Source: a virus
DNA: 20,160 nt
IMG/VR virus record: IMGVR_UViG_3300032194_000098
Coordinates: 1-20,160 of that record
Reading direction: 5' to 3' (one strand)
Shown in pieces: positions 5,681-16,778 of this stretch (position 1 is its first letter; each line of letters starts with the position of its first letter). Both the position numbers and the translations under genes were made by a program. The notes below the pieces were generated by a model. That model was not told where the DNA came from and did not search any database. It saw only the letters and a program-made list of their open reading frames with translations.

Positions 5681-6094
5681 TTATGCCTTCTCTAAGAGAA
5701 ACTCGATAGTTTGGACGACAGTTTCACCAACAATGGTATAATCAAGCTCAACTGCAATAGCATTTAGGTCAGAATCATCAGTAAGAGTCACTTTTGTGAC
5801 TTGAATTCTAGGTTCTAGACGACTCAAGCAGTTTCTAATCTCACCTTTGATCTCATCTGCACTAAAAACATCCCAAGGCTCAAACAAAAGACCCTTAATC
5901 CTTGACCCAACAGAGGGTTGAAAGGGTCTTTCACCGAGATCAGTCAGTAAAAGGTTTCTTACTGCCTGCTTAATCGCATTTTCATTCTTAACTATGCCAA
6001 AATCGCCAGTAGATGGATTAGACTTGAATGAAACAGACAAGTCTTTGTATCCTCTACTGACGTATTTCTCGGATCTGAATCTGTAAGATGCCAT
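5681..6094 (-). CDS. 25: Baseplate wedge protein gp25
   Basis: This 137-residue protein matches gp25 of T4 (132 aa), a small baseplate wedge component belonging to the gp25/gpW-like (lysozyme-like fold) family shared with contractile injection systems. The family block GERPFQPSVGSRIKGLLFEP is at residues 54-73, and the conserved EPR triad of the family is at 94-96 (LEPRI). In this family the EPR segment anchors sheath initiation and wedge contacts. The ATG at 6094 overlaps the previous stop as TAATG and is preceded by an AAAGGA ribosome site. Directly followed by gp6, the order seen in cyanomyoviruses. Confidence 0.95.
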   Translation of the reverse strand: MASYRFRSEKYVSRGYKDLSVSFKSNPSTGDFGIVKNENAIKQAVRNLLLTDLGERPFQPSVGSRIKGLLFEPWDVFSADEIKGEIRNCLSRLEPRIQVTKVTLTDDSDLNAIAVELDYTIVGETVVQTIEFLLEKA

Positions 6095-12439: not shown

Positions 12440-12591
12440 ACCTTACTAAGTCTCCTAATACGTTGTAGACCCGTGCTACAGGCGATCCTGAGGGTCTCTG
12501 AGAGTGTTATAGCGATATATTGAAATTGCTCCCAAGGAGTTGTGGTTACCTTAGGAGCAATATAATCAGTTACTGGTTTTCTTAGTTTCAT
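12436..12591 (-). CDS. Small protein overlapping the HNH gene end (51 aa)
   Basis: A 51-residue frame from ATG 12591, overlapping the last 26 nt of the HNH gene in another frame, to a TGA that overlaps the NlpC/P60 start (ATGA). It reads MKLRKPVTDYIAPKVTTTPW, then EQFQYIAITLSETLRIACST, then GLQRIRRLSKV: basic ends around an amphipathic, fairly hydrophobic centre, so it may touch membrane. The tidy overlap with the next gene supports it, but the start has no ribosome site and a strong hairpin lies within it. The true start may have been displaced by insertion of the homing endonuclease. Function unknown. Confidence 0.55.
   Translation of the reverse strand: MKLRKPVTDYIAPKVTTTPWEQFQYIAITLSETLRIACSTGLQRIRRLSKV
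12525..12561 (-). repeat. Long stem-loop just after the HNH stop
   Basis: Arms 12525-12537 and 12549-12561 pair over 13 positions (one G-U in the minus-strand RNA) around an 11-nt loop. It begins 4 nt after the HNH stop codon. No U-run follows, so it is not a standard terminator. It also lies inside the 51-aa frame. Confidence 0.6.
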
Positions 12592-13024
12592 GAGTGATAC
12601 CATGCTTGTCGTAGTCTGACTTTGGAATCAATATCCAATTACCATCCTCCATTATATAATAACTTTTGCGTTTGCGTATCGTCCCATTCGGTAAGCGATT
12701 CCTCGCCATGTTGTCGTCCCTTGAAGACCATCGAAGATTACTTACATGGTTATTGCTTTTAACACAATCAATGTGATCCACATCAGAAAGATTTTCTGGA
12801 TTTGGTATGAATGCTTCGGCAACTAGGCGATGCACATAATGCTTCGTCTGTTTCGCAAACTTTCCGTTTTCATCATAGATTGATATATTGACCGCCATAT
12901 AGCGACTATCGTTGACCTTCGTAAGGTTTCCTCTAGGGTGGGCGGCAATCTCTTTACCATCATGAAAAACCTTTCCAGTATCACTCACGCTATACCTTGG
13001 AAATCTTGTGGGGAGAATTTTCAT
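12566..13024 (-). CDS. HNH homing endonuclease (free-standing)
   Basis: A 152-residue protein with the NUMOD4/HNH arrangement of phage homing endonucleases. The N-terminal YSVSDTGKVF (residues 11-20) is the NUMOD4-like strand. The HNH fold follows: YVHRLVAEAFIPNP (63-76), VDHID (82-86, metal-binding His), NNHVSNLRWSSRDDN (91-105). The C-terminal GTIRKRKSYYIMEDGNWILI is basic and aromatic, perhaps for DNA recognition. Such genes cut unoccupied alleles and spread by repair. It lies between unrelated small late genes with hairpins on both sides and has no ribosome site near its ATG, as expected of a mobile passenger. I see no flanking intron. Confidence 0.9.
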   Translation of the reverse strand: MKILPTRFPRYSVSDTGKVFHDGKEIAAHPRGNLTKVNDSRYMAVNISIYDENGKFAKQTKHYVHRLVAEAFIPNPENLSDVDHIDCVKSNNHVSNLRWSSRDDNMARNRLPNGTIRKRKSYYIMEDGNWILIPKSDYDKHGITHETKKTSN

Positions 13025-13533: not shown

Positions 13534-13643
13534 TCGTAATCTCCAGAGTAGGTGTCACTAAGTGTTTCTTCAGTTAGGTCATCATACTCGGGGCAATCCT
13601 CAGCGAGCATGTCATCAATCCAATCAGTGTCGATCTCATTCAC
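13530..13643 (-). CDS. Very small acidic protein (37 aa, GTG start)
   Basis: A 37-residue frame starting with GTG at 13643, preceded by a full AAGGAGG ribosome site nine bases upstream, the strongest in the window. It reads MNEIDTDWIDDMLAEDCPEY then DDLTEETLSDTYSGDYE. About two residues in five are Asp or Glu and there is no Lys or Arg. Overlaps both neighbours by a few bases. Such short acidic phage proteins are sometimes DNA mimics or inhibitors, but nothing specific is shown here. Confidence 0.75.
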   Translation of the reverse strand: MNEIDTDWIDDMLAEDCPEYDDLTEETLSDTYSGDYE

Positions 13644-13809
13644 GGGTGTAATCCTCCTTGGTGTTGTTGTTATCGTAGCGGGTGGAATAGTCCTCAGAAT
13701 AACTGTCATAATTGGTAGTCTTTTTGCTACCGTTAAATTGACGTTTCTCTCTGATACTTTTCGGTCTACGAGAGTTGTGGAGGTCGTTGCGTTTGTAAGT
13801 CCGTCCCAT
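13636..13809 (-). CDS. Small basic/tyrosine-rich protein (57 aa)
   Basis: The frame is open up to 13941, but that part contains the late promoter element, so I place the start at ATG 13809. The product is MGRTYKRNDLHNSRRPKSIR, then EKRQFNGSKKTTNYDSYSED, then YSTRYDNNNTKEDYTRE: a basic N-terminal half and an acidic, Tyr/Asn-rich, probably disordered tail. Its N-terminus (MG-TY-RND----RPKS-REKR) recalls short basic proteins of cyanophages. No ribosome site is visible before the ATG. First gene of the overlapping late chain after the promoter at 13916. Confidence 0.7.
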   Translation of the reverse strand: MGRTYKRNDLHNSRRPKSIREKRQFNGSKKTTNYDSYSEDYSTRYDNNNTKEDYTRE

Positions 13810-13915
13810 TGTGATTTGTTGACTTGAGTGAATTGTAGAGGATCTTGGAGGTGTTGTCAAGTGTTTGCAATCCTTGCCCTTATGTGTTACAGTCCGAGGC
13901 AACGATTTGTGTGCA

Positions 13916-13923
13916 TATTTATA
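13916..13923 (-). promoter_or_regulatory. Late promoter element TATAAATA
   Basis: A perfect T4-type late consensus on the minus strand, in a gene-free stretch about 107 nt before the ATG at 13809. It is placed to start the leftward late transcript covering the small-gene chain and possibly the tail genes. Match seen; activity inferred. Confidence 0.65.
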
Positions 13924-13939
13924 AGGGCATTTAGAGCAC

Positions 13940-14020
13940 AAAAGTATATTTAATTAACCATTTAATTTATTCCACAGAAACGCGCATAGTTGTGGAAAAC
14001 TTGTTAATAACTGTGGAAAT
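13940..14020. other. Origin-like or operator-like region: AT-rich block plus three phased DnaA-box-like sites
   Basis: Three copies of the 7-mer TGTGGAA, one inverted, start at 13970, 13991 and 14012, exactly 21 bp apart (two helical turns). The nonamers are TATTCCACA (13968-13976, plus), TTTTCCACA (13991-13999, minus) and ATTTCCACA (14012-14020, minus). TTTTCCACA is, as I recall, the DnaA-box form reported for cyanobacteria; the other two differ by one base. An AT-rich block of about 32 nt (13940-13971) lies next to them, like an unwinding element, and a late promoter is 20 bp beyond. A repeat of CATAGTTGT (13985-13993 and 14021-14029) adds to the structure. It may be a replication origin, a host DnaA-responsive switch, or an operator. 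Confidence 0.5.
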
Positions 14021-14028
14021 CATAGTTG

Positions 14029-14658
14029 TTATGCTACTGGGACGATTTGTGCTGTAAGTGTGATTCTATTGCCAGTAGGGTTAGCATCAAATCCATGTGT
14101 AATGTTTGAGGGGTGAATGATAATATCTCCCTCTTTAATGTTGAATGTTGCTTCGGTCATGTTGTAAGGTGTGAAACCTGTGGAATCAAATTGCATGACT
14201 GGATAGAAATTAGAGGCAACGTTTCGTCTCCACTTAATGGGACAATGTTGGTCTGGGTTAAAGTTGACGAAGTAGGTGAGAGAAAATAAACAATTAGAGT
14301 GCTCATGTGGTGCATAGATTGCTTGCACATCTGCGATCTCTAAGTAACTATCTTGGATAGCGAAGTTAGTGTTAAACAGGTGTGCATTTGTGTTGTGTTG
14401 ATTAACAGCATTGATGAGAGTTTCAGCAATCCAAGGCAATGCAGTTAGGCATTCATTGTTATCACCTACCTGTGTGATGTTGTGGCAGATTGCTTCTCTA
14501 CCGTGCTTCTCTTTTAGATCTTGTTGTGACATCCACTTGAGAATATCTTCCTTGTGTTTGTCATGATCAGGGTTGGTATATTTGGTGACAGGGAGTGGAA
14601 ATAGTCCGTAAGTCTCATGTTGAATTTTATCAGTGAGACTAGGGGAAAGATCAGACAT
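14029..14658 (-). CDS. 2-oxoglutarate/Fe(II)-dependent oxygenase (cyanophage type)
   Basis: A 209-residue protein of the 2OG-Fe(II) oxygenase superfamily (2OG-FeII_Oxy_5-like). These enzymes use Fe(II), O2 and 2-oxoglutarate to hydroxylate a substrate. Visible motifs: IYAPHEHSNCLFSLTYFVNF (residues 114-133) with H118/H120 of the metal site, and DIIIHPSNITHGF then NPTGNRITL (178-201) with distal H188 and R198 that would bind 2-oxoglutarate. The N-terminus (GLFPLPVTKY) is typical of the family. Such genes are common in cyanophages and their substrates are unknown. It is preceded by an extended -10 promoter; its leader has no ribosome site (TTAACAACA then ATG), the same leader as the gene at 19117. 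Confidence 0.8.
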   Translation of the reverse strand: MSDLSPSLTDKIQHETYGLFPLPVTKYTNPDHDKHKEDILKWMSQQDLKEKHGREAICHNITQVGDNNECLTALPWIAETLINAVNQHNTNAHLFNTNFAIQDSYLEIADVQAIYAPHEHSNCLFSLTYFVNFNPDQHCPIKWRRNVASNFYPVMQFDSTGFTPYNMTEATFNIKEGDIIIHPSNITHGFDANPTGNRITLTAQIVPVA

Positions 14659-15077: not shown

Positions 15078-15428
15078 TCAGGCGAAGATGAAACCGTTAG
15101 AGAAATCTTCAACGTTGAAGACTTTACCAGTGATGGAAGATTCTGCAACAAACTTACGCACAAACCACTGGTGATTCTTCTGGAAAACACCTTCGCCAGC
15201 GATGCAGAATTCTTCGCAAAGTGCATTAAGGCGAGATTTTGTGGTGACAGTCTGCCAACCACCGTCGAAAATCGTCATGGAGGTGTCATCAATCTCAGCG
15301 ATCTTGTTGCCGTGGAGACGCACAACAGAGACGCCAGATTCAGCGTCAAAATGCACAGAAGTGTTGCCAGACTGCCAGTCCTTGTTACCTTGGACAGCGG
15401 CACACATTTGAGATTCGATCTTACGCAT
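15078..15428 (-). CDS. Uncharacterised phage protein with 'FDGGWQTVTTKSRLNA' motif
   Basis: A 116-residue protein. The N-terminus MRKIESQMCAAVQGNKDWQS leads to strands (SVVRLHGNKIAEIDDTSMTI), then IFDGGWQTVTTKSRLNALCE (residues about 53-72) and GEGVFQKNHQWFV. I recognise this pattern (FDGGW-T-TTKSRLNA plus VFQK----W) from widespread short phage and plasmid proteins that have no assigned function. Its CT-rich leader has no ribosome site and contains a tandem 9-bp repeat. It follows the helicase gene with a 111-nt gap. Confidence 0.8.
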   Translation of the reverse strand: MRKIESQMCAAVQGNKDWQSGNTSVHFDAESGVSVVRLHGNKIAEIDDTSMTIFDGGWQTVTTKSRLNALCEEFCIAGEGVFQKNHQWFVRKFVAESSITGKVFNVEDFSNGFIFA

Positions 15429-15539: not shown

Positions 15540-16778
15540 TCACACGAGAGCGGTGGCAGGGATACCCTTTACGAAAATCTCATCCGTGATACGTTGGAGA
15601 CGCTTAATAACTGCGGCACCATAGTTACGATGCACGGGGACAGTCACAAATCCTGTGGGTTTGTTATACAAACTCCACTGCTGAGGTTGAATCTCACCGC
15701 TCTGCAATCGTGCTGCGTCATCCTTATCGAGACGGATAACTCTGCCGATCGTTTGCGCCATCTCAACCACGTTAAGATTGCGGAGCATGATGCAATGAGT
15801 GAGACCAGGCACGTTGATACCTTCAGACAGAATGGAATAGTGAAACAACACAAATTTGCGTTGCTTATCCTTACCCCATGCAGTCAGCGTGTCAAAGAAT
15901 ACTTCACGCGACACTTTAGTTTGATTCACATAGGCACCAAACTTGCTGGTGACGTGCAACACATCATAACCACGATCAGACAACTCAGAGAGAATATCTG
16001 TGTGACCGAGAATGTTACCCAGCACACGCGAAGAAGGCACAGCAACCAACACTTTTGCAGCGTCAGTCTCATCGAGTTGATCAATAATATCCTGCACAGT
16101 GTTACTGTGGACCATGTGAGGATTCTTCTTATCTACGACGTGATCTGTCTCGAAAGGGACAATCGTAGGGGGAAGAATGTGACCGCCTTGAATCAACTCA
16201 GGAGCAGGGACATTCTCAAGAACGGGACCGAAGATCTCACGGTTATTCATACCACGGTCATGCTTATTGCTGACGCGAGGTGTTGCTGTGAAGAAATACT
16301 TTTGCACGGCAACCATACTCATAGCAGCAACACTTACAAAGAAATGTTTAGTGCAAGCGTTGTGTGCTTCATCAAAATAGATAGCATCAATGTCGATGCC
16401 ACTATCAACAACACGGCGCAGACTGTGGTAGGTAGTGAAGATAATGCAGGACTCATTCGCTGCTCGCGCAGTATCATTGAAGAGAGCAAGTTTGTCGCTG
16501 TTTGTTGTCTTGAAGTGATGCGTTTCACCACTGTGGCAGTGCGCTACATGTGTCCACGTTGTTGGAATAAACTGCAAGAATTCTTCGCTGAGTTGATTAG
16601 CGAGAAGAATGCGCGGAGCAACAACAACAATGGTGCGGGGACCGTTGTTAAGCAGTTGGCGACAATGCTCGATCATGATGATAGTCTTGCCACCACCAGT
16701 AGGCACGATGATTTGACCGTGATCAGCGGCGCTCATTGCAGCGAGGGCGCGAGTCTGATGCGGGCGAAGTGTGATCAA
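15540..16778 (-). CDS. SF2 DEAH-box DNA helicase
   Basis: A 412-residue superfamily 2 helicase. Motifs: LRPHQ (residues 4-8), Walker A PTGGGKT (26-32), TIVVVAPR motif Ia (49-56), DEAH Walker B (136-139), TAT motif III (164-166), LSEGINVPG motif V (317-325) and QTIGRVIR motif VI with arginine finger (342-349). It uses ATP to translocate on or remodel DNA, in the style of UvsW/RecG-like branch migration or restriction-enzyme helicase subunits. It is shorter than T4 UvsW (about 500 aa) and lacks an extra N-terminal domain, so I do not call it uvsW. The start is a TTG at 16778: no in-frame ATG precedes the LRPHQ motif, there is no ribosome site, and a TATAAT lies 26 nt upstream. The gene looks more GC-rich than its neighbours. 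Confidence 0.92.
   Translation of the reverse strand: MITLRPHQTRALAAMSAADHGQIIVPTGGGKTIIMIEHCRQLLNNGPRTIVVVAPRILLANQLSEEFLQFIPTTWTHVAHCHSGETHHFKTTNSDKLALFNDTARAANESCIIFTTYHSLRRVVDSGIDIDAIYFDEAHNACTKHFFVSVAAMSMVAVQKYFFTATPRVSNKHDRGMNNREIFGPVLENVPAPELIQGGHILPPTIVPFETDHVVDKKNPHMVHSNTVQDIIDQLDETDAAKVLVAVPSSRVLGNILGHTDILSELSDRGYDVLHVTSKFGAYVNQTKVSREVFFDTLTAWGKDKQRKFVLFHYSILSEGINVPGLTHCIMLRNLNVVEMAQTIGRVIRLDKDDAARLQSGEIQPQQWSLYNKPTGFVTVPVHRNYGAAVIKRLQRITDEIFVKGIPATALV

Follow-up and report, generated by a model that had tools for sequence, protein, structure and literature searches.

The window, a complete IMG/VR contig of 20,160 bases, belongs to a T4-like cyanophage (cyanomyovirus), and its minus strand carries every gene. 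Along the direction of transcription, the UvsW-type helicase gene (15540-16778, minus strand; phrog_16, E 1e-69), which forms the outer boundary of the conserved neighbourhood, is followed by the gene of the Kyanoviridae gp96 protein (15078-15428, minus), small genes and the 2OG-Fe(II) oxygenase gene (14029-14658, minus; phrog_81, E 5e-24, with PF13759 below the cut-off). The gap at 13810-14028, holding three DnaA-box-like sites and an AT-rich block, comes next and precedes a small conserved ORF beginning with MGRTYKR (13636-13809, minus). Further downstream in transcription lie small genes, including that of an HNH endonuclease (12566-13024, minus), and the genes of a large baseplate protein, a PAAR protein, the gp25 baseplate wedge (5681-6094, minus), from which the cluster position is measured here, and gp6. 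Since all the genes are on the minus strand, the boxes are located downstream of the oxygenase gene, which is the upstream neighbour of the gap, and upstream of the small ORF. The order oxygenase, boxes, small ORF is common to S-SZBM1 and the loci L045 and L071, with an oxygenase identity of 40-45%. At approximately 10100-10500 of L071, an ORF resembling by eye an HNH/NUMOD-type homing endonuclease separates the boxes from the oxygenase gene; the HNH gene of the window is also nearby.

The three sites and the composite element

The heptamer TGTGGAA starts at 13970 (minus strand), 13991 (plus) and 14012 (plus), and the spacing of exactly 21 + 21 bp given in the original prediction was reproduced. 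Site A, TATTCCACA (13968-13976, plus), is inverted relative to the two others and separated from site B by a 14-nt gap; a box is present at this place in the relatives L009-L013 and L015. Site B, TTTTCCACA (13991-13999, minus), had been described in the original prediction as the cyanobacterial form of the DnaA box, and it does match the published consensus exactly (PMC4674748) and is conserved across Kyanoviridae. Site C, ATTTCCACA (14012-14020, minus), lies 21 bp from site B and is an exact TTTTCCACA in L015 and degenerate in L013. The AT-rich block reported beside the boxes was found at 13940-13969, where 27 of the 30 positions are A/T; it is a candidate unwinding element and the counterpart of the conserved AT-rich core of other cyanophages.

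Three more features occupy the gap. The late-promoter octamer TATAAATA (13916-13923, minus) is indeed perfect; its distance of 20-odd bp from the boxes was not reproduced, the nearest box being approximately 44 bp away and the AT-rich block approximately 16 bp. The octamer is retained only in close relatives and is therefore probably outside the conserved element. The block GTTGCCTCGGACTGTAACACAT (13882-13903, minus) has the form TTGTAGTCTTAGCACGC in most cultured cyanophages. A putative sigma-70 early promoter, TTGACA-N17-TACAAT (13832-13860, minus; 11/12), corresponds to TTGACA...TATAAT in the relatives.

In the alignment of 18 sequences, these parts formed a composite element which, in gene orientation, consists of the box cluster, the AT-rich core (consensus approximately AATAAAT.TAG.TAAGTG), the conserved block and usually the sigma-70 early promoter. 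Judged by this comparison, the three sites of the window exemplify a cis-element conserved among T4-like cyanophages, located between uvsW and the gp25/gp6 baseplate genes and predicted to comprise a phased cluster of two to four host-type DnaA boxes, an AT-rich core, a conserved block and an early promoter. The block TTGTAGTCTTAGCACGC, which has no assigned role, was found in L157-L164, L166-L169 and L174. Phage P-TIM40 has the same neighbouring genes and retains the AT-rich core and a related block while lacking the boxes, which indicates that the boxes are a separable module.

Conservation and fixed position in T4-like cyanophages

In the whole window, the heptamer TGTGGAA occurs 5 times against 4.2 expected and is not over-represented; its local clustering is the unusual feature, and not its frequency. 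A similar density elsewhere would have spoken against the original prediction, and the outcome was favourable, since the exact 9-mer TTTTCCACA is rare elsewhere in these genomes. Its positions were determined in T4 and in 26 cyanomyovirus genomes, cultured or complete (P-SSM7 being entered twice, as G001 and W26). Most of the mapped genomes have 2-8 copies, several of which are usually grouped upstream of gp25. In cultured Kyanoviridae including Syn9, S-PM2, S-RIM2 and S-RIM14, the cluster lies between uvsW and the baseplate genes, at a distance of approximately 4.5-6 kb upstream of gp25, or 7.6 kb in the case of S-PM2. The sites are at 52565/52589 in Syn9, 48122/48145 in S-RIM2, 52810/52833 in S-RIM14, 59568/59580/59592 in Sf-CH1a, 19231/19244/19256 in S-PM2 and 45973/45996 in P-SSM7.

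Of the 83 TTTTCCACA sites in the 17 records oriented with gp25 on the forward strand, 42 fell within 3.5 kb (3-6.5 kb upstream of gp25, an interval picked after seeing the data), and 41 were distributed over the remaining 3.1 Mb. A pair of sites within 40 bp was present in 12 of these 17 genomes, while random placement gave 0.08 on average; the genomes are related, and neither the sites nor the pairs count as independent events. The spread of layouts is a stronger point than the counts. Among 1260 anagram 9-mers in six whole cyanophage genomes, only TTTTCCACA formed close pairs in five of the six, the next best doing so in two. A one-mismatch scan of six complete genomes, of which five have the cluster and one lacks it, revealed few other groups, none of them equally dense in exact boxes.

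A second box pair was observed approximately 0.2-1 kb from the main cluster in ACG-2014d (KJ019057, 37684-37703), S-RIM14 (53067-53091), S-RIM32 (61859-61880) and P-SSM7 (46602-46631).

The cluster was not found in P-TIM40, P-SSM2, P-SSM4, P-HM1, P-HM2, P-RSM4, P-RSM6, ACG-2014f, RB11-B and the metagenomic L016 and L017, and is thus not essential to all cyanomyoviruses; the T4 genome has no TTTTCCACA cluster. By the strict definition, it was present in one of eight phages isolated on Prochlorococcus and in 14 of the remaining 18, whose isolation host is Synechococcus or which were deposited as phages of Synechococcus (Fisher p = 0.003, phylogeny ignored).

The three-box architecture TTCCACA-N14-TTCCACA-N14-TGTGGAA is present in seven IMG/VR contigs: five relatives of the window, which retain the box block with partly different flanks, and L001 and L004, which have unrelated flanks and genes of the same neighbourhood. 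In the oxygenase-based search, boxes were directly downstream of the gene in L009-L013 and L015 and missing in L014, L016 and L017. At least 120 IMG/VR contigs contain the simpler arrangement TTTTCCACA-N14-TGTGGAAAA. Among the 120 matches listed, 104 encode the uvsW-to-baseplate neighbourhood, and the spacers between the inverted boxes take 96 distinct forms; the reversed-letter control of the same pattern gave zero matches across the IMG/VR collection. BLAST of the 81-bp box region revealed no significant homologue in cultured phages because the flanks diverge. The alignment across relatives, proposed as a check of the original prediction, found both the sites and their phasing conserved.

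Helical phasing and variable layout

Box layouts differ between genera. Some phages have an inverted pair 14 nt apart, others three tandem boxes spaced by 12 bp or four spaced by 11 bp, and the window has an inverted-plus-direct triplet. The scan of pair spacings left gaps free between 2 and 32 nt. In the Kyanoviridae loci, the gaps of inverted pairs clustered at 4, 14-16 and 25-27 nt, and the spacings of direct pairs were mainly 11/12, 21/22 and 32/33 bp. The window fits both series, with an inverted gap of 14 and a direct spacing of 21. For the inverted pairs, Rayleigh R at a period of 10-11 bp was 0.84, the maximum in 20,000 random sets being 0.43; the loci may share ancestry, which makes this significance level optimistic. 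The raw histogram of direct pairs from all viruses was set aside as proof of phasing, as the reversed-letter control peaks at 21-24 and at several codon multiples as well; the phasing therefore rests on the gaps of inverted pairs and on the Kyanoviridae loci.

An RNA hairpin, a terminator or a protein-coding repeat could in principle account for the conservation. The inverted form folds well (z -4.5 in S-RIM2 and -2.1 in the window), and in S-RIM2, S-RIM12, S-CAM8, ACG-2014b and P-SSM7 the inverted pair codes for the C-terminal end (FSTDNAEIVEN) of a small protein. However, a stable stem is not common to all forms, since the tandem ones do not fold (z -0.1 in Sf-CH1a and 1.1 in ACG-2014d); no terminator was found, and Rfam gave no match near the cut-off. 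The same boxes persist in noncoding contexts in other phages, so the peptide is not the explanation. Number, orientation and spacer vary while the boxes persist, which favours a protein-binding cluster and makes the RNA or coding explanation very improbable.

Host DnaA and the proposed origin of replication

For Synechococcus PCC 7942 and Anabaena PCC 7120, the DnaA box has been published as the 9-mer TTTTCCACA, and domain IV of Cyanothece DnaA binds two or more boxes in vitro, binding to a single box being not clear (PMC4674748). Upstream of dnaN, genomes of the host family have boxes of the forms TTTTCCACA, TTTTCCCCA and TTTTCCTCA together with a run resembling CTACTACTA, and DnaA is encoded in all three Synechococcus genomes tested. 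A single exact oriC motif is too narrow a query for host genomes. Since the phage 9-mer equals the published and host oriC box and Synechococcus encode DnaA, host DnaA is, by sequence identity, the leading candidate binder of the phage cluster. The conservation, the fixed position, the helical phasing and the presence of the same 9-mer at the host oriC give strong support to the original description of DnaA boxes in phase next to an unwinding-like element.

Coincidental likeness to the DnaA box, with the 9-mer being the site of another phage or host protein, appears unlikely. Consistent with such a site, most phages isolated on Prochlorococcus lack the cluster, though low-GC picocyanobacterial genomes have boxes upstream of dnaN; against it, the 9-mer is identical to the published cyanobacterial box (PMC4674748) and found at the host oriC, and no candidate binder was identified among the genes of the neighbourhood. 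Prochlorococcus is said to have no DnaA box near dnaA (PMC4674748). A lack of DnaA boxes in this host is not supported as the cause of cluster absence in its phages, boxes being present upstream of dnaN in low-GC members of the family. The picocyanobacterial oriC regions at this place (host loci L328-L357), including those of low-GC Prochlorococcus-like genomes, show TTTTCC(A/C/T)CA boxes beside a CTACTACTA run resembling a DnaA-trio. In the Synechococcus WH7803 chromosome, an inverted pair of exact TTTTCCACA was observed at 1819368-1819420 (L321), far from dnaN and dnaA.

With host DnaA as the candidate binder, the best single explanation is that the element serves as a replication origin or supplies the DnaA-dependent portion of one; we assign this reading a probability of about one half. 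The boxes, the AT-rich core, the early promoter and a position independent of the downstream gene fit an origin best, and the rough match to the neighbourhood of T4 oriE also favours it. As in oriC-type origins, a cluster of host-type DnaA boxes is present, and an AT-rich region adjoins it by sequence (13940-13969, with the core conserved in relatives). The occurrence of host-type boxes at a fixed place in many T4-like cyanophages suggests that host DnaA may be borrowed to start DNA copying. The observations comprise the boxes, with their phasing, constant location, independence of flanks and coding context and identity to the host oriC boxes; from them we infer DnaA binding, strand opening and initiation at the cluster. 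Host DnaA would bind the phased boxes cooperatively on one face of the helix and help to open the AT-rich core. Through the opened core, a phage primosome of the gp41/gp59/gp61 type could enter, or the first replication rounds could be primed, after which recombination-dependent replication would take over.

A single theta origin has been predicted for Syn9, as stated in a review (PMC2984593). GC skew, both raw and at fourfold sites, gave no origin-like switch at the cluster; recombination-dependent replication may mask such a signal. The possible phage origin of the original prediction is thus favoured by the comparative evidence and received no support from GC skew. A DnaA-trio-like run (CTACTACTA) was looked for beside the boxes and was absent from the phage elements in the alignment.

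Two other roles of bound DnaA have been considered. E. coli DnaA is known to regulate transcription (PMC4674748), and the gap with the boxes also holds a sigma-70 early promoter that is retained in relatives; host DnaA could accordingly act as a sensor of the host replication state, regulating this promoter or nearby genes rather than initiating. Yet the boxes are approximately 108 bp upstream of the early -35 in the window and approximately 150 bp or more in other phages, which is far for direct control; they neither overlap nor closely adjoin this promoter, and the nearer late octamer, at 44 bp, is not a conserved feature. The boxes also persist next to different downstream genes, the MGRTYKR ORF in the window and another small ORF in Syn9 and P-SSM7. 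Such regulation, which matches the DnaA-controlled switch named as an alternative in the original prediction, is a minority possibility, though one of some weight. Titration, in which the boxes would sequester host DnaA in a datA-like manner and shut down initiation of the host chromosome as phage genomes accumulate, seems quite unlikely. DnaA boxes on a high-copy molecule would compete with the host oriC, and ACG-2014d, S-RIM14, S-RIM32 and P-SSM7 have two clusters each; however, each genome has only 2-5 clustered boxes, and a titration site could sit anywhere, whereas the cluster has a conserved position and is adjoined by a conserved AT-rich core and block.

Read as an origin, the element would, on the best reading of its sequence, work like the bacterial oriC and T4 oriE while fitting neither definition fully. 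It shares with the cyanobacterial chromosomal oriC, where TTTTCCACA boxes lie upstream of dnaN, the same 9-mer, several boxes and adjoining AT-rich sequence. Unlike the chromosomal locus, the phage element has fewer boxes and no DnaA-trio-like run, and it lies away from dnaN in a lytic phage genome. Host DnaA boxes beside an AT-rich region also characterize phage and plasmid origins of the P1 and R6K type, which belong to mobile replicons with a dedicated Rep protein and iterons; neither of these was identified at the cyanophage element. T4 oriE resembles it in having short repeats kept at a syntenic place and an early-type promoter (PMC3016281), which the window has as TTGACA-N17-TACAAT at 13860-13832. 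In position by gp5/PAAR/gp6-type baseplate genes the two agree roughly: oriE lies within gene 5, whereas the cyanophage element is nearby but upstream of the large baseplate gene, the gene order being similar and not the same. Homology with the oriE repeats was rejected, since T4 gene 5 has 24-bp repeats and not DnaA boxes. The R-loop origins oriF and oriG likewise combine a promoter with an AT-rich element in a T4-like phage; they use MotA middle promoters, while cyanomyoviruses lack motA (PMC2984593), and the AT-rich core of the cyanophage element is upstream and not downstream of the early promoter.

In the limited literature searched, neither an earlier description of the element nor an experimentally located replication origin of a T4-like cyanophage was found. 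T4-like cyanophages are abundant in the sea, and the element gives a precise position in well-studied phages (52.55 kb in Syn9, 19.23 kb in S-PM2 and 48.12 kb in S-RIM2). If the origin reading is true, a T4-like phage with its own replisome would still recruit the host initiator. More tentatively, and with some doubt, lytic T4-like cyanophages might start replication at one main host-DnaA-dependent origin tied to the host replication state, a dependence that Prochlorococcus-infecting lineages would mostly have lost. Closely spaced TTTTCCACA pairs are also present in L022, L046, L050, L095 and other IMG/VR loci without Kyanoviridae markers, and these contigs may represent other phages using host DnaA boxes.
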